From NCBI GenBank assembly GCA_021927905.1, contig BLLK01000056.1, positions 1 through 64,000 of the forward strand: DNA of 64,000 bases. The letters are read 5' to 3'. Numbering within the stretch: the first letter of the stretch is position 1; each line of letters opens with the position of its first letter. Source of the stretch: Chaetoceros tenuissimus (taxonomy: Eukaryota; Bacillariophyta; Thalassiosirophyceae; Chaetocerotales; Chaetocerotaceae). Position numbers and translations under genes: made by a program. The notes beneath the pieces were generated by a model. That model saw nothing but the letters and a program-made list of their open reading frames with translations. It searched no databases and was not told the origin of the DNA. This document shows positions 28,813-49,709 of the stretch, piece after piece.

Positions 28813-31131
28813 CTAAAGATTTTTGCAAATCATTTGTGTGTACGCATTCGCTCCGCAACCTGCCATAATGGTGTTGTAGTCTACCAGAATTTGTCCATTC
28901 GTATTATGCCATAAGAAACATCCACATGGCAGTCCATGCCAAGTAATTAAATTCAGCCAATCAGGAAGATTCAAACTGCCATCGCCAGCAGCATATGCAG
29001 CATCGAGACATTCACTTTGAGGCACGGCAATGGAACCACTTGGACATGACGAGATACCATCTCCCTTCTCGAGCATGAAGTATGTAGAGACTGAAGATGG
29101 AAATGAGACAGGTGCTTTCGATGGTGTAGACGTTGGTGTTTTTGAAAGATGCAATGTTGGTGGAGAGACTATTGCAGTTGGTGACATAGTATCTGTACTT
29201 GGTCCGGAGTCAGTTTGGTCTGACTTGCAAATCATTTGTGTGTACGCATTTGCTCCACAACCTGCCATAATGGTGTTGTAGTCTACCAGAATTTGTCCAT
29301 TCGTATTATGCCATAAGAAACATCCACATGGCAGTCCATGCCAAGTAATTACATTCAGCCAATCAGGAAGATTCAAACTGCTTCCACCAGCAGCATATGC
29401 AGCATCAAGACATTCACTTTGAGGCACTGCAATGGAACCACTTGGACATGACGAGATACCATCTCCCTTCTCGAGCATGAAGTATATAGAGACTGAAGAT
29501 GGAAATGAGACAGGTGCTTTCGATGGTGAAGACGTTGGTGTAGATGTTGGTGTTTTTGACGGATGCAATGTTGGTGGAGAGACTATTGCAGTTGGTGACA
29601 TAGTATCTGTACTTGGTCCGGAGTCAGTTTGGTCTGACTTGCAAATCATCTGTGTATACGCATTCGCTCCACAACCTGCCGTAATGGTGTTGTAGTCTAC
29701 CAGAATTTGTCCATTCGTATTATGCCATAAGAAACATCCACATGGCAGTCCATGCCAAGTAATTACATTCAGCCAATCAGGAAGATTCAAACTGCCATCG
29801 CCAGCAGCATATGCAGCATCGAGACATTCATTTTGAGGCACGGCCATGGAACCACTTGGACATGACGAGATACCATCTCCCTTCTCGAGCATGAAGTATG
29901 TAGAGACTGAAGATGGAAATGAGACAGGTGCTTTCGATGGTGAAGACGTTGGTGTAGATGATGGTGTTTTTGACGGATGCAATGTTGGCTGTTTGGTTTT
30001 TATCATTGAAGGTTTCATTGATGGTTTAAACATAGATTCCTTGGACGGGCTTGTTGTTTTCATAGTTGGAAGTACGGATGGAATCATTGTTGAGGGTATA
30101 GTCAATCTATTGTGTGACGGGGCTTGACTAGGTTTCAATGTCGAAGTTTTCGAAGGATTTGACGTAGGATGCTTTGATGAAATTTGTGATTTACATATCA
30201 ATTGAGCTCTTGGTTCTGCCATACATCCAGTTGTCGCGGAGTTGTAATCAATCAATATGGAACCATCAGTATTATGCCAAAGAAAGCAGGTATTGCATGG
30301 AACAAAGTTCTCCCAATAAAAACTATTTAACCAGTCAGGTAAGTCTAAGCCTACCCCTACACTAGCTGCAGCTGATAAACACTCATCTTCTTGAACTTCT
30401 TTTCCTTCGGGACAACTATCTCCAACACCTATTTCCATCAAAATATATTCAAATGAATCATTCAATGTAGGCGTATTCGGTGAATTTGTGCTTGAAATAG
30501 TAGGGGTTCCAGTTGAATGGAGATTCGTAGGACTTGATGTTGGCGATGGTTCAGATGGTAGATCACAAATCAACTGAGATCTTGGTTCCGCCAAGCAACC
30601 AGTCGTTGCCGCGTTGTAATCAACCAATACAGAGTCCTCCGAAGCATAAAATAGAAAGCAACCACAAGGAACGAAATCTTCCCAAGTAAATGAATTGAGT
30701 ACGTCTGGAAGACTGAGTCCGGTATTAAGTGCTTTTGCAACTGCAAGACATTCATCTTCTTTGATAGATGTACCTTCTGGGCATTTATCTCCAACTCCTC
30801 GTTCCATAAGGACATAATTCGAGGGACCAGGCACTGGTGTTGGAAATTGCGCCTCATCTCCATCTCCATAAATGTCATTGGCACTGAGCAATTTAGAAAA
30901 TGTATTCCTATTAGGAATAACGTAATCCAATTCCTGTATGAATTTATAATTTGGTTTAGACAGATTTCGATTGTAAATATCGTGAGTACTTGTCAATGGT
31001 AAACTTACCTCGTCTGTGGTTATTCCAAACCATTCACTGACACCATTCCAAACTGAATCCCATGGAGTTGAGGGAATCATTATCCCCGGAGTGATGACTT
31101 CAGGTCCATCATTTGACAAAACATCAGGGTA
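28813..31131 (-). CDS. C-terminal segment: five tandem Cys-rich modules with PTxxPS linkers
   Basis: This is the open frame after the TGA at 31132, in phase with the DUF1501 part upstream (the read-through would be ILG-stop-YPDVLSNDG), so it is the end of the fusion protein rather than a separate gene; its first ATG is at 31080. It begins with the DUF1501 end (IPSTPWDSVWNGVSEWFGI). Five ~85-residue modules follow, each with the order MLEKGDG..CP.G...ECLDAA..AG..LPDWLN..TWHGLPCGCFLWH, then ILVDYN....GC.A..QMICK. Six conserved Cys suggest disulphides. Linkers are Ser/Thr/Pro-rich (LHPSKTPTSTPTSSPSKAP). The first two modules are diverged and the last three are almost identical. An extracellular binding module is inferred. 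Confidence 0.65.
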   Translation of the reverse strand, partial: YPDVLSNDGPEVITPGIMIPSTPWDSVWNGVSEWFGITTDEVSLPLTSTHDIYNRNLSKPNYKFIQELDYVIPNRNTFSKLLSANDIYGDGDEAQFPTPVPGPSNYVLMERGVGDKCPEGTSIKEDECLAVAKALNTGLSLPDVLNSFTWEDFVPCGCFLFYASEDSVLVDYNAATTGCLAEPRSQLICDLPSEPSPTSSPTNLHSTGTPTISSTNSPNTPTLNDSFEYILMEIGVGDSCPEGKEVQEDECLSAAASVGVGLDLPDWLNSFYWENFVPCNTCFLWHNTDGSILIDYNSATTGCMAEPRAQLICKSQISSKHPTSNPSKTSTLKPSQAPSHNRLTIPSTMIPSVLPTMKTTSPSKESMFKPSMKPSMIKTKQPTLHPSKTPSSTPTSSPSKAPVSFPSSVSTYFMLEKGDGISSCPSGSMAVPQNECLDAAYAAGDGSLNLPDWLNVITWHGLPCGCFLWHNTNGQILVDYNTITAGCGANAYTQMICKSDQTDSGPSTDTMSPTAIVSPPTLHPSKTPTSTPTSSPSKAPVSFPSSVSIYFMLEKGDGISSCPSGSIAVPQSECLDAAYAAGGSSLNLPDWLNVITWHGLPCGCFLWHNTNGQILVDYNTIMAGCGANAYTQMICKSDQTDSGPSTDTMSPTAIVSPPTLHLSKTPTSTPSKAPVSFPSSVSTYFMLEKGDGISSCPSGSIAVPQSECLDAAYAAGDGSLNLPDWLNLITWHGLPCGCFLWHNTNGQILVDYNTIMAGCGANAYTQMICKNL
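28822..30000. repeat. Three near-identical tandem coding repeats (402 and 414 bp periods)
   Basis: The sequence starting TGCAAATCAT recurs at 28824, 29226 and 29640. Periods of 402 and 414 bases differ by 12, the four-codon length change of a linker repeat (GTAGATGTTGGT). All are multiples of three, so the frame is kept. High identity indicates recent duplication or gene conversion. Confidence 0.85.
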
Positions 31132-34100
31132 TCATCCGAGAATTCTTTTGCCATTGACCTCGCCACCAATAATGAAAGCATTGGAACCCCAAGCATGATC
31201 CGAACCTGCTGCTGAATTCATTGTTAGTGTTCTTCCAAACTCGGATACACCAACAATTGTTATATCAGCCCAAACATTTTGGTCTTTCATCTCAGATGTA
31301 AAAGCTTTTAATGCATTATTAAGCTGAGTGTTCAAGAGATTAAATGTTGATTTTGTATTTCCATGCTAAAAAGAAGATTTGAAAGGAACCATTAATATTG
31401 AGTGAATTCTTCTTAAAATTGACGAAGCAACATTTGTCTTACCGTATCATATGAGCCATGCCTAGCGTAAAAAATATCCCTACTGACCCCTCGCACATCT
31501 TTTGACTTAATCAATTTCGCAATGGTTCCCAATTGCGTTCCTTAAAATCATATGAAAAAGAAGATTCGATTAGAAAAGGACTCATAACAGTTACAATCAA
31601 TCCTGTGCGGATCCCTACTCACCAATTTCATCCTCTGGAAAATTAGCAGACGTAGTTGTGGAAGTTATTGCATTGTAAAGCAAATCATTTTCACTAAGGG
31701 ACTGAAGTACCCGTGTAGACCATGTCTCTCCAAACAATCCAGACCCAATACGTGTGTACTTATTTAAATGTTTCAGTGTTTCCCAGAGTGGCTGTGCCCA
31801 TGACATGGGGTTAAATAGTTGATAGTCAAATGGATCTGCCACAAAAAGGGATGTGAGCTCAGACACTAATGCTTCAGCTATACCATAGACTGACACAGTT
31901 CCAGCAACAATGCCTTTCTTTATCAATGTATCTACCATTCTCCCCCCTATGCCGGTTCCGGGACGCTCCTTATTAATATCCATTTTCTCCACCTGTTCAT
32001 TCATAAGGTTGTGTGCAAAAAAGAGAAATCTTTGTTTTATCTCTCCAATTCAGTTCAGTGACACTCTCCTGTAGTACGCCAATATTTGATACAAATACAA
32101 GATCTTCTTCATTGTAAAGAGTTTGCAAGTGTGACAAATGTGGATGGATACCAAACTTTGTGCAGATTTGATTTGTTGCTTCAATTGGATGTAGATCTTG
32201 TTGAGGATAAGAAAGACCACCTCTAACAGATGCATAGTGATGGTAGGAATCTGTAACAAATTCGATTCATGATCAAATGTTAGACGAATTTAAATGGAAA
32301 AGAAATAATCGAGGGAAACATCAGACTTACTTCTTCCAGAACAACCAGAATGAGGAATCAACAAATTCTTAGGTGTTCATGATCAAATGTTAAATGAATT
32401 CAAATGGAAAAGGAATAATAGAGGAAAACATCAGAGACTTACCCAACTATCCATTCCGCCATCAATTTTTAGAAAGATGACTGCTTTATATCTATCACTG
32501 GATGGCTGTGGAAATTGTGAATCGGGACTCACTTCTGCCTTTGTGTCAATAACATTATTACTATGAAATTCTGGTGTCGAGAGGATAAGCTTTTGCGCTA
32601 AACGAAGACCATCTATGTGGTTCAAACTTGAATATGCATTTGCAATTATAGAACGCAAATCTTGTGATAAACGACCTCCTGTAAGGAGCAGTGAGAGTTC
32701 ATCAACAACTTGGCTGGCATCATTTGGATTGGATGGTGAAAATGTAAGCCGGCCCATATTATGACCGTTGAAATTTGGACCAACTGAAGCACACCTGCCA
32801 AAGATAGGCTGAGCGAACCCGCCATAACACTCGTTGAAGCCAAGATCTACTAAAGAAATGAGACCGTTCATAAGATTGATTATCTTTGGTCCACTCAGGA
32901 CCTGAGCCTCAGGAGATACTAAAGTTGATGCTTTGATTTTCCCGGCAGCTTGATACTCTGGTAGGAAAAAGGAGAAGACTCCTGGTGAAGAATGCGATTC
33001 TTGGCCGATTTTTGATTGCAAACCATCAAAATGAATCTCTTTTCCAGCTTCTGCACGACTTTCAAATTCCATAGCTCTCATGAAAGCAATTACCTTGATC
33101 AATGGTTCAAACAAAGCTCCTGAAAACGGATCTGCATCAAGTACGGCAGTGGTTGCTTCACGATCTAGTATAATCACTGCAATTGTAGACGAAAGGTTGC
33201 CATATTTCCCATCTCCAAATATCTTTCCACTGAAATTGAAAGTACCTGTTTTAAATGCGTTTGCTACTGCCTCTACATATCTCGGTTGGATTGCCCAAAT
33301 CTTTGAATTAATCTGTATGCCAAGAAAGGAGGCAGATTTTCATGGTAAAAGTATGTATCCAATACAGCGTCTGTCTCATAAATAGCATCTCTAGGTTCTC
33401 TGACAGCGATATTCATATGATGAGGAGGGTTGCGAAAGGATAGCACTGAACCGATTAGGCTCACTGTAGAAAGTATGTTCTTCAAAAATATCTTCTTGCC
33501 TCGATAATTCACACCAAGATAGAACTTGCACTATACCCATTAGAATCTTTCTGCCATACTTCTACTGCATCCGTATTAGAAGTTAAGGAATATCCTTCAA
33601 GCCTCCTAGGATCTACAGACCCGATAAAGAGTTTCGCTAGAATTTCGTCCAGAGTAGGCAAGGATGAAAAAACGACACTTTCATTAGTTGAAATACTGCA
33701 AATACAATGACCTTCTACCATCGAACATGCATTGTTTGCACAAGAATTTGAAGCATTAGGATAATCGCCGTTTTTCCATGGCACCTTGAAGAAATTAGGA
33801 TTTCCTTGATCTACTCGTGGGTCGGTTATATATGAGTTTGAATTCACAGGCTCATGTATCATAGCAACAAGACCATCTTCATTAACTAGAAGAAAGGAGA
33901 GACAGAAAAGGTTAAAGATATCAAAATGGAGAAACAATTGTAAATGAAACACCGGGACATACCTTTCACTTTTACCTTGCAGTCTTGATTTGTCCAGAAA
34001 AATCCTTCCTCCTCGTAAAAATTATTACAAGTGTTGGACCAAGTGTCGATGCCAGACCAATTACAAAGAGACCCAGATATGCTTTTCTCTTGACAACGAT

Positions 34101-36716
34101 CACTAGCTGTCATGTAGGTGCTTCTCTCAAAGTGAAAGTTACAGAAAGATGTCGCATACGGATTAGAAAGCAAAGGCTGTTGACAACATGCATCAAAATG
34201 ACGAAGATGAATGTTGGCACACATTGACCTTTGCTTTGAACCTGCATTATATTTTGTGGCAATTTTTTTGCTTGAAGAAAAGAATGCGAGCTCCACACAT
34301 TCAGGGCGTTGATACTATTTCAAGATTTGTTAAGTAAATATTTTCATAACGCGAAATAATGAAATGAACTTGACTTACCTCATAATAAATCGGAGGGTTT
34401 TGTTGAACTTGTAATAGCCTCACGTCTTCCAAATGGCACTCTTCTCCAAAACATTCTATGTCAGAGTCCAAAGTAACTATTGCTTGCAAATTAGAAAGGA
34501 CAGTCTTTAAATTTGAAGTTTCTGCAAGAATAGTCACTTTGAGAGCATGAAAGTTAATTGATGAAGTTTGGTCATGAAGCTCTGGTCTTGCAGATGAACC
34601 AAGCAGCCTGAAAGTTGCTCCAGCTTTTAAAAATTGCCTAGGTGGAAGGTCTACACATAGAACTTTTTTGTCTGCGACAAAACCTTACTTCAAATCCATT
34701 TTAGGGAATGGATCTCTCCAGTCTGCAACAACCTTCATTGGATCCATACGATTCAACCATTCAGTTTCCAAAGCTTCATAGTTACTTCTTGCTTCAACTC
34801 TTGTGAAACCAGTCCACGCACGTCTAAAAGATTTGCAAATAATAATGAGTTGGATGTACTAATTTGTGAAATCGAGTGAAGACACATACTACTTACGCAA
34901 AGTTTTGAATATCGTCATTGTCATAAGTTGCAATGAGATCACTATTCTCATCTCTTCTATAGGTTCCATCCAAATTCAACATATTAACACCTAATGAAAA
35001 TAGTTGCATTACCTCCCTAGCGTAGTTTTCATCAGGCTTCAGATTTGCCCCTGTAGTTTCGTAGACATATGACGAACTCTTTGAATCTACATATGAAAGC
35101 ATTTCGGCCATCCTTCATGTACAATAGAGCATCAAAATAAGTTAATGTTAGAACAGAAACTTTCAAAAGCAAGTGGAACATAAATGGACTTACATAGGAC
35201 TATAAGAAACTTCTTTCAATATGTCGAAGTAATTACCAAATGCATGCCTAGTAAAGATGTCGAAGAAATTTAAATAAATCTCAGAATAGCCAATATCAGC
35301 TATCTGGTTTGGGGTTATCACCAAAATTTGAGACAGAGCCCATGCAACTCGTTGACGAAGTTGATCAGAACTTTGCATCGCAATTGCAGCCCATACATTC
35401 CTCTTTTGATTCGGGGTAGGTGTCCTTACGTCGCCAAGAGGAGCAAACGTATTTTGAGCTAAAGGATCATTGGCAACTTCATTAGGACTACCACATACTA
35501 ACACATAATCCCCGTGCCTATCCTTTTTGTACGCACTACTGCATGCATTTGGAGCATTTGATAGGTAGCAACTTGAGCGCACTTCAGAGAAAATGAGAGA
35601 TTTTGTAGTGTTTGTAATCATAGATGTATTCAAAGTCTGAACTTACAATTCAAGAACGATGTAGAAGGTACAGGGCAAATTTTTGTACTTCCTTCCATCA
35701 TCTCACCACCGCCATTAATCATTGGTGTCTCCAGAGAATTTTCATGAAATTTAATGTTGCCAGCATAGTAAGCTTGCCCGCCACCGGAGATATTTCCTAA
35801 AATTCCATGGTACTTTCCGTCTCTTAGAATCTCGAAACATTGCAAATTCGAAACAGCATTCTTCAGGTAAAGTGCTTCACCAAACTTGTGTTCTATATGA
35901 TACGACGAAGAAAGTATTGGGTTGATCATTCCAAAATTTGATCGATCAGGTAGATTCACCACTCTAATATTGGAATAGCTGTTGTATAGACTTGCTGGTA
36001 GATTCACACGAGGATTGCCACCATGGACACCAGTGCAGCGATTATTAACTGTTACTTTCAGCACACCATGCACTCTTTCTTCCGGATGCCAACAAATCTT
36101 ATACTGCCCTAATGACAAAGGATGTCCATAGTCCGTCTGCCAAGTTGCCAAGAGAGTGCGCGGAATACCTCCTACAGTCAACAAATACTGACCACCGAAA
36201 CTTGTAACTTGTACCTTTATGTTTGAAATAGAAACAAATTTAGTAAACTTCATCAAGAAAGAGTGAATAGAAAACAAATGAGCATTCTTACATCCATATA
36301 AAAGTCATCCACGGTAAAAGAGTACTCCCTCCAACGAGCATACTGATCACATGGATGATAGCCATGGAAGTGATCATTGAACCTTTTGACACCATTTGCA
36401 GATCCACCCTCGAAGACAGCTGCTCTATCAAGATTTTTTCGAAAGTATGCGCGATGTGAGGTAGGTGTAGTTTGAGTTTCATCCATTTGCTTTTCCAACC
36501 AATTAGACATTCCTTGCGAAATTTCTTGATCGTAGTTCCATGAATCAATCATAGCCATGGTAGGGCCGAAAGTAGTTTTCTGAAAAAATCTGCTGACTTT
36601 TTCCTTGTTTCCATTAGCAGCGGTATTTGTGAAAGACATCAGAACGAAGTGACCATCATCATAAGGAGGCAAGGAATGTACTTCTAGTGTGCATAAGCCT
36701 GAAGTACAACTAATAC

Positions 36717-36734
36717 TAGTCAAATCTTGATATG
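36717..36734. repeat. Target-site duplication, left copy
   Basis: TAGTCAAATCTTGATATG, identical to 37103-37120. On the minus strand it encodes the YQDLT found on both sides of the insertion. Confidence 0.9.
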
Positions 36735-37102
36735 AAGGGGGAGGGGTTAGCTCAGTTGGTAGAGCAGTCATCTTCATGGTGAAAGGTTGTGGGTTCAGGT
36801 CCCACCCATTTCCCCCTGTTCAAGCCTGGATATGCTTGAACAACCGGCAGTGTGTACATGCTGCCACCAACAAGATTTCTTAAAATCTATTCTGTCCCCC
36901 TCCTTGTCCCAGGGGGGTAGCGCACAACACAATTTGAGACATATGAAGAGGCAAGGTGGTTTTCACAATACGGGAAGTTGGCTTTCCCCTAGCCACAAAT
37001 AACAGAAAACATTATCAATTGTCATCCACCTTCGGGCCGATGTAATGAAATTGATGCTATCCATATAATATAGTGATTAATATCAGTAAAGATTTTCAAT
37101 TT
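36735..37102 (+). mobile_element. tRNA-headed SINE with 18-bp target-site duplication
   Basis: A 368-bp insert bounded by two perfect copies of TAGTCAAATCTTGATATG (36717-36734 and 37103-37120). Its left end carries a tRNA-like head (~36737-36815) with an A box (TTAGCTCAGTTGGTAGAG) and a B box (GGGTTCAGGTCCC). D and T arms fold well, but the anticodon stem and acceptor stem do not, as expected for a SINE head. A ~290-bp body follows, ending in an AT-rich tail (ATAATATAGTGATTAATATC) without a poly-A run. A tRNA-derived body and long duplication point to LINE-mediated insertion. It sits in antisense inside a coding exon; removing it plus one duplication restores the reading GAYQDLTSISCTS. Perfect duplication suggests recent insertion. 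Confidence 0.85.
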
Positions 37103-37120
37103 TAGTCAAATCTTGATATG
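37103..37120. repeat. Target-site duplication, right copy
   Basis: TAGTCAAATCTTGATATG, the second copy created when the SINE inserted. Confidence 0.9.
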
Positions 37121-37634
37121 CTCCAGCTAACCTTTCCCACGGAAATGAATTATAGGATCGGGCAACAGGAATCATGTTAAAGTCATCTGTCTTCGATGTT
37201 CGGGAGAAACTTTCAATAGATTTGGTTTCATCCACACTACTGACACGGAGAAGGAGACATAGGGCATCCTCACTAGTAATATGTATTTGAACTGCAAATG
37301 AAGAGTTGCTCGAATCTAAATAAAAGAACAAATAGTGAGATTAGGAAAAAAAGTGACATAAAATTTTAGTGTAGTCATTCTCACTCACCATTGACCACAA
37401 TAGGTTCCTCGTTGGGTTGAGGGCAAAAGAAAGCCTCACCGCTTTGTAGAAATCTGCTTTCAGATCTTCTTTTGACGGAAGCGAATTCATCTTCGGCAGT
37501 ACTAGAAAAAGAAGTATTCTTGTGGTTCTCATCACTTGTATTTTTAAGATGTTAGCAGAAAATCCGTAAAAAGAGAAGATGCTGACCAAAAAACCCAGCA
37601 AAAAAAGAGTCGAGAGTCTCCAAATACCAATCAT

Positions 37635-38024
37635 ATGTAGAATGGAATTAGAATCGAAATGTGCAAATTAAATTTCCTTCTTTTTTCAAGTAGTGGTGAG
37701 GGTTAGAAGAAATATTGTACCAGTAAGCAGCGAAAGTCTGGTTTGGATGTTACTTCTTCGAGATGGGACGTTTGTTTCTCGACGGGTCATCGGGTCATTT
37801 CATTTCAAGATGGGTCATTTAAAAATTTGTTGAACGAAGTACTATGAAAATACTGAAACTGTATTTAGTTGGTCAAATGCAGAGATTATAAAGTTCAGCT
37901 CAAAGAACCATTATTTGAATATTATTTTACTTCTCATTTTCGCGTTTCAGCATTTTAACTTTTCTGATTTCGAGCCCACTTGCCAACTTACAAGCGGGAA
38001 TACATGTTTGGCTAGCCTTCACGT
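37635..38024. other. Intergenic region upstream of the DUF1800 fusion
   Basis: Holds the promoter side of the fusion gene and the 3' flank of the RING gene. GACGGGTCATCGGGTCATTT and GATGGGTCATTT form a short repeated GGGTCATTT motif (~37780-37820). Part of it (from 37859) belongs to the direct repeat described above. Confidence 0.5.
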
Positions 38025-38172
38025 CTAAATTTCAATCAAATTTGCATCCAAGAAATCATTTCGACAAAGAGGGCAATCGGAATGATTCATCAACCAAGCA
38101 ACTATGCAATCCGTATGGTAAACATGACTGCATATTTCATTCTTGGACCATGCTATGTCATCTCCCTCTCTA
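37859..38172. repeat. Right copy of a direct repeat flanking the DUF1800 locus
   Basis: The source-like copy of the repeat at 28191-28442: it includes the 3' flank and the last ~150 coding bases of the RCC1-TM-RING gene. The two copies bracket the DUF1800-DUF1501 locus, about 9.7 kb apart. Confidence 0.75.
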
Positions 38173-39746
38173 TATTCCTCTACGCAAATAGAGCAAAGCT
38201 TTGGATATTGCATTCTTGGAGCTTCTTCGTCATTTTCTTTATGAGTAGAAATATTGAGTGAAGATCTTATAGACTTGGATCGTTCAAGAAATCGCTTTCT
38301 TCTTCGTTTGCTGTCTTGATGTTGTTCTCCTACGGTAGGAGAATTCAATTCAATTTCAACAAACGCTCCAGAGTCTGATGAATGGAAAGAACATTCTGTA
38401 ATTTCATGAATCGACATTGACACCTTATTAGAGGCTTTGTTGTGCTCAGTGCTTTGTATAAGATCGCAATGCTCAAACTTTTTATGGACAATGTTTTGAT
38501 ATATGATTTCATGTCTCTTTTCACGCTCAAGTTGAACATTGTGAGCAGAGTCGGCATTCAATTCATTCGAAGCTCTACCTTTAATGAAATATCGTAGGAT
38601 AAAAGTTATTGCAAAAAGAATCAAAACAAGAACAAGCAATAATTCTCCAGTAAATTGAAAGGAGCCACTTGAATTCAACACTTTCATTTGGTGTGGATAG
38701 CATGTGGATTGTAAAGCAGGATCTGAATCTCCGTCGCCAAGTGTCCCATATGTATTTGTGCCCCAAGAAAGAATGCCTCCATCTTCTAAAATTGCATGCC
38801 CTGTTCGAGCCGTCAGATGAATAGAGTCAATCCGTGTATCATCACTCAGAATAGACACTTTTGAAGGTTCAAATGTATCGATGTCTTCTTTGCACAATCC
38901 TAATTGAAAGAAATCATTTTGTCCCCATGCATATGCTTGACCAGATTTGGTGAGTGCGAATGTAGAATTATCTGTGGCATCAATCTGCTTTGCATCTTCC
39001 AAGACTAGCATTGGCTGTTCTATAAATGGTTGCTCTACACTGTTTGCACCAACTGCACCATTTTTATTCGTACCCCAGCATAAAACATTTCCATTGTGAA
39101 GAAGTGTACATACATGATCACTGCCCGCTACAATTTCTTTCACAGAGCTAGGAATATCGATATCTTTAGCCCACTGTCCAACACATTTAATCTTTGTTTT
39201 ATCAACAGAAGCACATAGATAATTATCCGCAAGAGCCAGTTTAGGTGCTTGCGAATCGTGACTATTACCACTCAACGATTCAACAATTTGAGGAACGCCG
39301 CTTGTGATTCCTTCTTTATTGGTAGTGTTTGAGTCTAGATGCATATTGCTCCCCCAACACCAAACAGCATAGCTTGTATCTATTGCACATGCGTAGTTTT
39401 GACTAGAATAAATATCAATCACATTTCTTAGATTCGGTATGGAGTAAGGTTTGGGATATATTTCTTCTTCACCCATTTTATTTCGGATAAGTCCTATACA
39501 TAAAACTCGGCCCTCAGATAGAATGCAAGTATATTCTTTTCCACAAATTATCTTTTCTACCTGATACTGATCCCAGATCTTGGATCGTAAAAACTGCTTT
39601 GCTATTGATGGTTCTGCAACTCCAGTCCCAAGTTGATAGTTATTATTTTTTCCAACACATTGCACATACGACCCATCGATTACTATACATATATTATGAT
39701 CATGTCCGAAGCTGAGAATTTGTATTCTTGTTTTGTTTATTTTCAT
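38025..39746 (-). CDS. RCC1-repeat, single-TM, RING-H2 protein (likely E3 ubiquitin ligase)
   Basis: A 573-residue single-exon protein. Residues ~10-355 are RCC1-type repeats forming a probable beta-propeller, with recurring CVDKTKIKCVGQW, HVCTLLHNGNVLCWGTNKNG, FALTKSGQAYAWGQNDFFQLG and HAILEDGGILSWGTNTYGTLG. A strong membrane segment follows (LLLVLVLILFAITFILRYF, ~370-390). A ~120-residue polar linker leads to a C-terminal RING-H2 finger: CSICVEEY ... CSHVYHTDCIVAWLMNH ... CPLC, with all eight ligands present. No N-terminal signal peptide is evident, so the propeller side is uncertain. RING-H2 domains recruit E2 enzymes, so a membrane-bound ubiquitin ligase with an RCC1 sensor or binding domain is inferred. 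Confidence 0.85.
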   Translation of the reverse strand: MKINKTRIQILSFGHDHNICIVIDGSYVQCVGKNNNYQLGTGVAEPSIAKQFLRSKIWDQYQVEKIICGKEYTCILSEGRVLCIGLIRNKMGEEEIYPKPYSIPNLRNVIDIYSSQNYACAIDTSYAVWCWGSNMHLDSNTTNKEGITSGVPQIVESLSGNSHDSQAPKLALADNYLCASVDKTKIKCVGQWAKDIDIPSSVKEIVAGSDHVCTLLHNGNVLCWGTNKNGAVGANSVEQPFIEQPMLVLEDAKQIDATDNSTFALTKSGQAYAWGQNDFFQLGLCKEDIDTFEPSKVSILSDDTRIDSIHLTARTGHAILEDGGILSWGTNTYGTLGDGDSDPALQSTCYPHQMKVLNSSGSFQFTGELLLVLVLILFAITFILRYFIKGRASNELNADSAHNVQLEREKRHEIIYQNIVHKKFEHCDLIQSTEHNKASNKVSMSIHEITECSFHSSDSGAFVEIELNSPTVGEQHQDSKRRRKRFLERSKSIRSSLNISTHKENDEEAPRMQYPKLCSICVEEYREGDDIAWSKNEICSHVYHTDCIVAWLMNHSDCPLCRNDFLDANLIEI

Positions 39747-40081
39747 GGTTATTTTTGATTTACTTTTCTAGGTCAGAGTATAATAATTGCATTCGTGTGC
39801 ATGTCAAATGCGAACACGTTGAAGAAATGTGATGCATCTGAGTGTCATGCATAGAGTCTTGCAAAAAAATGAATTTGTGAGCATTGACAATTTGAGACTT
39901 TTCCGAATAATTTAGTTGATCTAGTTGGAATTTAGAAACCGTTGACGACATTATATTTGAGCGTTGAGTGGATTTTTGGCACTTTTTTTTTCTTTCTCTC
40001 ATTTTTTGAACTCATATTAATACTTTCTAACTTCCAATAACTCGAAAGAATCAATTTATTCTACTATTGCCCTCAATCAGT
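39747..40081. promoter_or_regulatory. Divergent intergenic region
   Basis: 335 bases between the RCC1-RING gene (minus) and the secreted Cys-rich gene (plus). T-rich run TTTTTTTTTCTTTCTCTC at ~39983-40000. No further element recognised. Confidence 0.4.
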
Positions 40082-47102: not shown

Positions 47103-47176
47103 GGGGGGTTAGCTCAGTTGGTAGAGCGCGTGCTTAGCATGCACGAGGTCGCGGTTTCGATTACCGCAGTCTTATA
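47103..47176 (+). tRNA. tRNA-Ala(AGC)-like sequence, degenerate acceptor stem
   Basis: D arm (GCTCAGTTGGTAGAGC), anticodon arm (CGTGC TTAGCAT GCACG, anticodon AGC) and T arm (GCGGT TTCGATT ACCGC) are complete and well paired. The acceptor stem is not: 5' GGGGGGT meets 3' AGTCTTA, giving two mismatches and three G-U pairs. No T-run terminator follows. It lies 29 bases upstream of a good tRNA-Ala copy and is probably a decayed tandem duplicate. Confidence 0.6.
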
Positions 47177-47205
47177 GCTGAAATCAATGATGTGTTGTCG
47201 AAGAT

Positions 47206-47278
47206 GGGGGCTTAGCTCAGTTGGTAGAGCGCAACCTTAGCATGGTTGAGGTCACGGGTTCGATTCCCGTAGCCTCCA
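47206..47278 (+). tRNA. tRNA-Ala(AGC)
   Basis: A complete 73-base cloverleaf: acceptor GGGGGCT/AGCCTCC with discriminator A; D arm GCTC...GAGC; anticodon arm CAACC TTAGCAT GGTTG with anticodon AGC at positions 34-36; variable loop AGGTC; T arm ACGGG TTCGATT CCCGT. A and B boxes are intact. A short T-run follows at 47283-47287 in GTTTTG. Alanine identity is supported by AGC and by the G3-U70 pair of the acceptor stem. Confidence 0.95.
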
Positions 47279-49709
47279 AAAAAGTTTTGCAAGTGCGACT
47301 TCTTTTTATCCCTATCTGGTTAGAAGAACAATCAGTCCCGCACTGGTAGGTACAGATTTTCTCCGAAACTAGGAAAAACGACGAAAAGTTGCACCAACGG
47401 CAAGCGAGAACACACAACACAATATCTTATGATACCTTCACATAAAAACAGCAAGTCCAAAAGAACAACATATAACACAACAATCAACCTCACAGTAATT
47501 TGCGTTTTCCTATTGCACTCTGTCAGTAAGTGAACATTAAGGCAAAGGCTTCGGTCTGCGCCGGTATGGCCTCCATGAGTATGCAATAGGATTTGATTCA
47601 TCCATGAATCAAGAGGGGCGGGTATCAAAAACCCATGCAAAGATACTGTGCATCACTGAGCCGCCAACATCAAAAAGATACACTCCAATGCTTCACACAC
47701 CTAGTGTGGTTCGACTTCTTTTTTTATTGTATTGCATATTCAATAAGGTCACCGGTGGTCCTGTCTGTTTAACCTTTCCTGGTTATTCAGCTTGCTATCC
47801 CTGACTGATTGCTTCACAGTAACAGAAGAATCCGAATCAGCACACGTCATTACGTCGCTCCATATCGTTTGCCTTACAATCCGCGATGAAAGAACCCTTC
47901 ACCGTAGAGCCATTCTATTAACATCATATGATCCATCAGGCTTTGGAAAATATAGAAATATCAACACTTGCAATTGATTTAGATGACAAATAGATGTTTT
48001 TCAAATTGGAAGAACAAGTCGAAGCTGTCCAACTATACAATTGGACGATGGAATGCGTTCAAAGGTTGAAGTTTTTTTTGGCAAAATCCATAAGATTTCC
48101 GAGTGTAGAGGAATGTGGAGTCGTCAGAAGTTCAAAGGGGATCTATGGAAAATATTGAAGATGAACAGGTGTCAATCGATTTGACAAAGCATTTGAAGAT
48201 GATAGATGATTATTATCAATTGTCGAAAAATGAACAAATGAAAGATGTGCAATGGATCGATGATGATATACCCTTCATAGGACGACTTTGAACAGTGCTT
48301 CTGTAAAGATCTTACCATATAGAAATTTTAATTACCGTCCAGGAATGTATTGTGGTGGAATGAGAGCTAGAGCAATTTCATATTCGCAATGCAAAAGCAG
48401 CTACTGAATTCGGACATTATCCAAAATAATGTTATCAGGAAACCTGATGATAAGGGAAGCTATAATTCGATTTCATTTTTATCAAAGTACCTAAGAGCAA
48501 AGTAATTAGGACGCAAATTGCAGTCGACTACTCAAACTTTCTCAAATGATATTAAATATCGTCAATCAGCAATTTATTAATAAATAAACTACGCCAACAA
48601 ACCAGACGTACCATTTCTTGAAGTTTCAATTCCAATTAGAAATTAAATATTACAAACATATGTTGCTTCTCCGAAGTGCTGTCCTTCTTGATTGATTCTC
48701 AAGAACACTTTCTACGCACAACTCAGTATGATCAAAATAGTTATGGTACGAATAAAAGATTTGCTCATATATCAATTGCATACAAATTCAAATCGATTAT
48801 TCTATTTAGTTCAAATATATAATGTAGTCTTAGCATTATGGTTATCATTAACGAAACGATTATCTGCTGCTTATATTTCCAATTACCTTCGTATGCAACA
48901 AAAGTCCATTTTTTGTACATATCATCTGTTCAGTATGAAATTCCAATGATGTTCGATGTATGACGTCGAAACCTTCATGCAAAAGAATTACCACATCCAA
49001 TATGGATAAAGGAAATATGAGCGATAACTACACAAAACAAAATCCTTTTCACCACAAGGGCGACATCGATTAAGTCTAGTCAGTGCTGGTAAGTGGTGAC
49101 AAGCGCTGGCTGAAGCAGGAATTTGAATGTTTACGCGTTTTCCAACTCAAAAAGGGTTATTATCTATTAGCGAGTCAAATTCACAGGTTATTAACTTATC
49201 AAAATCTGATAGTGACAATGTACGTGTAAACCGCATGTATCTACTTGGCTCGTACGGATTTTGTAACGAAGACAAATATTGCAGATGCCGATGCAGCTGC
49301 GAGTTCCTTTTGTTTGAAGTGTTTTCAATTGAATCTTCCACTTCACAATCTTTTTAATTCATACATATAATCTAAATACATATTGATAGAAAATACAAAA
49401 ACAAATACAGAGAATACCATCATTTACACCGGTTAATATTATTTAGCGAGGAAATCCCCGGATGGCCATGTTAGTACTCAATGTTTACGAAAATCTTGCT
49501 CTACGAGCCCGTATTTTCATCCACATTCACACTTGTGCTCGTCTGTTGATGCAATACACACACTCAGCTTTTGCATTTGCAATCTTCGATGTCATCTACT
49601 TCGACGACAGCTATGGCAAAGAGACGATGCTAACTACTTAAGCACATGGATCGTTCATTGAAAAGAAAAGGAATCATGCCTACAAAAGTGAGTAAAACAT
49701 CATGATTAT
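47279..49709. other. Gene-poor 2.4-kb region
   Basis: The longest stretch without a supported gene. Open frames here are all under 105 codons and without domains. A stretch at ~48060-48290 has a somewhat protein-like composition, but no frame stays open. No transposon ends or tandem repeats are seen. Confidence 0.5.

Follow-up and report, generated by a model that had tools for sequence, protein, structure and literature searches.

A low-copy tRNA-headed SINE family and its candidate partner LINE in the diatom Chaetoceros tenuissimus

A minus-strand reading frame of the diatom Chaetoceros tenuissimus is broken by a 368-bp insert that lies between two identical 18-bp repeats, which raises the question of what the insert is and how it came to be there. 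The window analyzed here is the first 64,000 nucleotides of contig BLLK01000056.1; the insert occupies positions 36735–37102, between a 5′ copy of TAGTCAAATCTTGATATG at 36717–36734 and a 3′ copy, in the same letters, at 37103–37120. A preliminary description of this DNA had reported the insert and its perfect 18-bp target-site duplication, and both are exact at these positions. As set out below, the insert, near full length and on the plus strand, is very probably a young member of a tRNA-headed SINE family of low copy number, put in place by a tail-recognizing LINE via target-primed retrotransposition.

When the window was scanned for direct repeats 13 bp or longer at 250–500 bp spacing, 17 emerged, and among the 15 longest, 14 fall in a tandem array at 28.8–29.6 kb and the other is the repeat flanking the insert. 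Among 20 randomized versions of the window (first-order Markov), one likewise contained an 18-bp repeat at this spacing, so the repeat is by itself no proof of insertion. The array itself (28823–29600) has spacings of 402 and 414 bp, with exact stretches of up to 114 bp. The 38-base junction of the empty site was absent from the assembly at up to 3 mismatches; as the assembly apparently represents one haplotype, the missing junction says nothing on heterozygosity. The right flank (37100–38200) had no second genomic match except partial ones (72–78% over about 110–210 bp).

A search of the C. tenuissimus assembly (41,027,912 bases, 68 contigs) with the insert returned 33 matches, comprising nine SINE rows, one head fragment and 23 tail-only matches. 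With the window copy named W and the other copies and fragments named by contig label, the nine rows are W, the near full-length copies C33, C21 and C36, C58 in two pieces, C28, and two body fragments on C29; the head fragment, of about 60 bp, is on C65. The preliminary description had proposed a search for further copies with their own duplications, and had held that a lack of other copies anywhere in the genome would tell against its reading; further copies do exist, with six near full-length in all, five of which have a duplication of their own. In gap-free columns, W is 93.7–96.1% identical to its four near full-length relatives and 72.6% identical to the subfamily copy C28; C33, C21 and C36 are 98.4–99.2% identical to one another and 95.6–96.1% identical to W; C58 is 93.2–94.1% identical to W, C33, C21 and C36; and C28 is 68.4–72.6% identical to the other five. 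C33, C21 and C36 have a 22-column stretch that W does not carry. The length of the SINE is 368–397 bp in five copies and 370 bp in C58 once a later insert is subtracted. This later insert (292 bp; L005:1190–1481, near 832.1–832.4 kb of C58), with 19-bp inverted ends CCGTCACTCTGAAAATTCC and TA on both sides, is a MITE-like element younger than the SINE. On C29, near-identical stretches at 160307 and 72217 (L007 and L008) lie in opposite orientation with the same headless SINE fragment in each, and appear by eye to be an inverted duplication.

The middle of W (36817–37018, plus strand) is a family-specific body with several predicted short hairpins that matches only copies and fragments of the SINE: as a query it gave 8 genomic matches at E ≤ 1, each a copy or fragment of the family. 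No Rfam family matched the body, no long reading frame was seen in the SINE on informal inspection, and the overall fold was no better than that of shuffles (z = −1.01; 26 of 200 shuffles did as well).

Upstream of the body lies a tRNA-like head (36741–36813, plus strand), which scores 33.9 bits against Rfam RF00005 (gathering score 29) when the stretch 36700–37130 is searched alone; a faster Rfam scan of the whole window did not list it. ARAGORN delimits the head at 36739–36816 and names it tRNA-SeC(tca), an odd tRNA. The heads of C58 (36.2 bits), C33 and C36 (31.6 bits each) also exceed the gathering score, and that of C28 (25.9 bits) falls below it. Read by eye against the consensus, TAGCTCAGTTGG (36748–36759, plus strand) is presumably A-box-like and GGTTCAGGTCC (36792–36802, plus strand) B-box-like. 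An exact 21-base head motif with GGTTC no more than 30 bases further on occurs six times in the genome, always within the six SINE copies, and the head pattern had no relatives in viral contigs. All six copies contain a TTTT run inside the body, through which RNA polymerase III would need to read. In a comparison with eight host tRNAs (7 of 63 genome matches plus one further window tRNA), the nearest to the head was tRNA-Ala(TGC), agreeing in 57 of 83 columns, followed by tRNA-Met(CAT) with 55 of 81; none of the eight is a clear source. Elsewhere in the window (47103–47279), two tRNA-Ala(AGC) calls stand about 30 bp apart, and the first, which scores 44.2 bits against 69.4 for the other, may be a decaying copy.

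The tail-only matches lead from the SINE to a LINE. All 17 of those fetched, out of 23, run upstream into LINE sequence; a further 5 follow immediately after LINE ORF matches, and the remaining match is C38:1635297. In the main LINE (LINE1; L014:3–4745, with L052; 337–343 kb of C42), an ORF1-like frame, with 377 codons in view, is found just upstream of a 1873-codon ORF2 frame that ends about 10 bp before the tail common to the SINE and the LINE. The full 1873-codon frame is free of stops in the copies at C42:339052 and C17:1136703. A search of the genome with the LINE protein, in which 38 of 124 candidates were scored, gave at least 40 matches; these belong to several lineages, the most distant at 30–39% identity, and viral contigs contained no relatives of this protein. 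The 5′ end is in view in nine LINE copies, six of which combine 5′ truncation with duplications of 14–20 bp; L021 and L023 show no duplication at the junction, and L026 has only an 11-bp repeat off the junction. The AP-like endonuclease domain of APE-type LINEs (PF03372) reached 24.8 bits (cut-off 24.5) in a sister copy at C21:1070075 only, the scores in LINE1 being under the cut-off (17.7, or 16.3 in another search), and RNase H (PF00075) scored 19.3 bits, below its cut-off of 25.8. Searches of the reverse transcriptase region against Pfam (RVT_1) and PDB chains (phmmer and profile searches) returned nothing believable, and none of the 90 matches listed in a genome search with RVT_1 is at a LINE1 site; the putative reverse transcriptase is consequently read from motifs only, in particular a GGGFIDD motif recognized by eye.

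The tail that the SINE has in common with the LINEs (37019–37097 in W, plus strand) is 78–86% identical to LINE 3′ ends and 84–86% identical to most main-LINE copies; over its roughly 79 bp it is at most 86% identical to any LINE tail. Alignment of W with the LINE1 tail gave a score of 94, which none of 2000 shuffles reached. The element closes with AATTT (37098–37102, plus strand), an ending that differs between SINE copies. The preliminary description had suggested looking for a LINE with the same 3′ end, and the tails that match at 78–86% belong to a multi-copy LINE. Its classification of the insert as a tRNA-headed SINE is thus borne out by the tRNA-model score, by genomic copies with duplications of their own and by a LINE with a common 3′ end.

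Target duplications are general for tRNA-derived SINEs with a LINE tail, and perfect flanking repeats, all of different sequence, surround W (18 bp), C33 (17 bp), C21 (13 bp), C36 (18 bp) and C28 (15 bp). No duplication adjoins the SINE in C58. A 13-bp direct repeat at that locus (L005), TACTTTTTCTACT, stands off from the SINE, by about 40 bp on the upstream side and 19 bp on the downstream side, which would fit the insertion of a longer unit. The duplications begin with an exact TA in 3 of 5 SINE and 4 of 6 LINE cases; tolerating a single ambiguous T in front raises these counts to 4 and 5. Of the dinucleotides of the window, 6.4% are TA. In the LINE, the TA start can be partly an effect of the TTA-repeat end. 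Open frames at the empty sites span 233 codons at W, 179 at C33, 446 at C36, 27 at C21 and 42 at C28, and several SINE insertions therefore break frames that are otherwise still open. At 300 positions drawn at random from these short loci, the fraction with a frame at least as long was 0.52 for W, 0.43 for C33, 0.54 for C36, 1.0 for C21 and 0.91 for C28; the frame lengths are therefore ordinary, and show no preference for exons. The 446-codon frame at C36 (L004) is rich in hydrophobic stretches and has, by eye, the look of a membrane protein.

These sites also bear on whether the family could be old and dead, with W appearing recent only because it sits in a tolerant exon of a one-haplotype assembly. 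A dead family would fit the small number of copies, the distance of about 4% between W and the C33/C21/C36 group, and the state of C58, which is without an intact duplication and carries the later 292-bp insert; however, C33, C21 and C36 are 98.4–99.2% identical, five sites retain perfect duplications, three of these five insertions break open frames of 179–446 codons, and open copies of LINE1 exist, and we consider this explanation unlikely. The preliminary description had called the insertion recent, and the word is apt insofar as the two copies of the repeat are identical and the host exon is otherwise open; it stands in that sense only, and implies no age in years. Because each empty site is known to single-base precision, strains can be genotyped for the insertions.

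At the window locus, the preliminary description had further claimed that the insert splits a minus-strand exon and that its removal restores the frame. When the insert and one repeat are left out, an open minus-strand frame of 233 codons does result, reading ...NSFPWERLAGAYQDLTSISCTSG... / ...SFPWERLAGAYQDLTSISCTSG..., in agreement with that claim. With the insert in place, the frame reads ...AGAYQDLTKIENLY and then ends, within the insert, at a premature TGA (37083–37085, minus strand), whose codon, starting at 37085, is the seventh from the junction. The host gene (approximate span 32431–37667, minus strand, with the exon broken at 36735–37102) apparently encodes a DUF1800 protein: PF08811 scores 33.7 and 29.4 bits (cut-off 26.1) in two same-strand open frames, and neither of the pieces adjoining the insert has a Pfam match. 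We infer from order and strand that the interrupted exon and the DUF1800 frames form one gene, which the insertion would truncate and may have knocked out. A genome search with PF08811 gave 42 exon-level matches, and several DUF1800 genes are thus present in C. tenuissimus. A neighboring minus-strand frame (38025–39764) encodes RCC1 repeats and a C-terminal RING finger. The host gene might still work if the insert were spliced out as an intron, and the frames suggest that the gene has several introns; the stop at the seventh codon from the junction, which would be met without splicing, speaks against this, and we judge such an outcome improbable. A one-off retrocopy, in which template switching in reverse transcription joined a tRNA pseudogene to the 3′ end of a LINE without there being any SINE family, would account for a head and tail that differ in origin and for the few copies, but is scarcely credible given that the head-body-tail order recurs at six places, that five of these have different, independent target duplications, which contradict it, and that the 200-bp body was found only in six copies and two fragments.

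The reading of the insert as a SINE moved by a tail-recognizing LINE draws attention to what such a LINE might recognize. The tail of W folds into a first hairpin (37023–37042, plus strand; CATC-CA-CC-UUCG-GG-CC-GATG, with a UUCG loop), as predicted from the fold of the tail alone and from covariation among 8 sequences, and into a second, approximate predicted hairpin (37046–37087, plus strand; columns 30–69 of alignment A1), which the best tail fold of W itself pairs slightly differently. Hairpin 1 appeared in 8 of 10 tails folded alone, C58 and a C29 fragment folding otherwise, and was replaced by other pairs when the whole W element was folded. A loose version of the hairpin motif is not rare: a scan of 520,454 bases, which counts the two strands of some 260 kb of partly redundant sequence, gave 93 hits, and no fewer than 19 of these are known tails.

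The 3′ end of C28 differs from that of the other SINE copies and points to a second LINE lineage (LINE2), which the protein search found in C32 and C27 (39% identity over nearly the whole query) and, in pieces, in C38 (30–47%). Other LINE2-like copies are located at C27:2034498, C13:1464313, C29:233721 and C59:324814. The LINE2 3′ ends at C32 and C38 (L061 and L062) have a hairpin on the same plan as LINE1: CATC-CA-CCC-loop-GGG-CC-GATG in LINE1, ACTC-CA-CTC-loop-GGG-CC-GGGT in LINE2 and TACC-CA-CTC-loop-GGG-CC-GGTA in the C28 SINE. C28 aligned with the C32 LINE2 tail over 45 columns with a score of 37, reached by none of 2000 shuffles, whereas W against the LINE2 tail was at chance level (324 of 2000), as was LINE1 against LINE2 (165 of 2000). 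The last 31 or so nucleotides of C28 are closer to LINE1 (5 of 2000 shuffles) and its hairpin part is LINE2-like, so that the tail is a mosaic; given this LINE1-like end, the true partner of C28 may be a third, unseen LINE relative. A genome search with the end of the C28 body and the hairpin, a query that stopped short of the last 57 or so nucleotides, found SINE copies only. From the resemblance of the C28 tail to the second lineage, it is probable that two or more LINEs have mobilized the SINE.

In an 8-row alignment of hairpin 1, whose structure was chosen after folding the same sequences, all 56 cells pair, 3 of 7 pairs show changes on both sides, and the covariation score was reached by none of 500 shuffles; the internal loop has CT in place of CC in two of the eight sequences (LINE1 of L021 and SINE C58). 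Left out of this alignment were L010, L026 (whose inner stem is one base short), L028, L062, C33, C21, C36 and further near-identical copies of LINE1. Among ten close tails, taken without LINE2 and C28, no pair shows changes on both sides, and the covariation thus comes from the addition of LINE2 and C28. Two other hairpin alignments were rejected, one for wrong coordinates and the other for a misplaced inner stem. Both kinds of tail have a predicted hairpin with a CA/C(C/U) internal loop and a covarying stem, which together suggest an RNA feature read by the LINE protein.

The steps by which W arose can be proposed from these features. The SINE RNA would be made from a promoter in the tRNA-like head, and its 3′ end would bear a tail akin to the one found on a resident LINE. 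The ORF2 protein of the LINE would then recognize this tail, and notably, judging from conservation and covariation, the hairpin with the CA/C(C/U) loop, nick the target DNA and reverse-transcribe the SINE RNA into it, leaving behind a duplication of 13–18 bp as the footprint that is seen. In the window, the RNA would have been copied into a coding exon, truncating the host gene, which is apparently of the DUF1800 kind; the second SINE subfamily would use a tail like that of a different LINE lineage. Transfer of the tail from LINE to SINE, rather than the reverse, as well as RNA polymerase III transcription and current activity, are likewise inferred. A bolder reading, to which we give slightly less than an even chance, is that this is a currently active diatom SINE whose family made a switch between two LINE lineages with proteins about 39% identical, both recognizing one hairpin architecture, and, as far as the literature was searched, the first characterized stramenopile SINE/LINE pair. 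That architecture would be a stem of variable sequence broken by a near-fixed CA/C(C/U) internal loop, and if the switch did occur, it would amount to a natural experiment showing which features of the template a LINE protein reads.

SINEs as a class are already known in diatoms. They have been reported in Phaeodactylum tricornutum (a putative SINE class of 13 elements, 1,454 bp), C. cryptica, S. costatum and Pleurosigma, and the genome paper of C. tenuissimus itself (PMC8613185) assigns them 0.02% of the genome; two of the diatom papers cite an earlier view that SINEs are absent from, or mostly missing in, single-celled eukaryotes. In the oomycete Phytophthora infestans, fifteen SINE families have been named (infSINEs; Whisson 2005, as cited in PMC5063351). 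The review by Ohshima (PMC3747384) counts 58 SINEs with a 3′ end in common with a LINE, and the words diatom, stramenopile, oomycete and Phytophthora are absent from its main text. Zebrafish and eel LINEs need a stem-loop in the tail, to which, in zebrafish, ORF2 binds (PMC4176376). In the open literature searched, we found no described diatom or stramenopile SINE family with a partner LINE. The suggestion in the preliminary description that SINEs of this kind were undescribed in diatoms accordingly fails for the class, and agrees with the literature found as regards a described family or partner LINE. What the analysis adds is one diatom SINE family and its candidate partner LINE: a SINE that can be traced over its whole length in the small genome of a diatom, with its copies, duplications, candidate helper LINE and interrupted frames, and a diatom example of a SINE/LINE partnership better documented so far in animals and plants.

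Set beside the known systems, the family resembles most closely the tRNA SINEs of the "stringent" type, namely those of eel (with UnaL2), tobacco (TS, with an RTE LINE) and Chlamydomonas (SINEX-3, with L1), with which it has in common a tRNA promoter head, an unrelated body and the 3′ end of a resident LINE (PMC3747384). As here, the tails of such pairs contain a stem-loop, for which compensatory changes are described in one plant example (PMC3747384, PMC4176376). The infSINEs are likewise stramenopile SINEs, and are likened to the present family by their description only (PMC5063351); the SINEs of the diatom genome papers bear the same label, and the main texts of those papers give class totals from repeat annotation and no head, tail, duplications or partner LINE. 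The family differs from the stringent-type pairs in its diatom host, in a partner LINE whose reverse transcriptase is unrecognized by Pfam, and in its termini, the LINE ending in TTA repeats and the SINE in AATTT.
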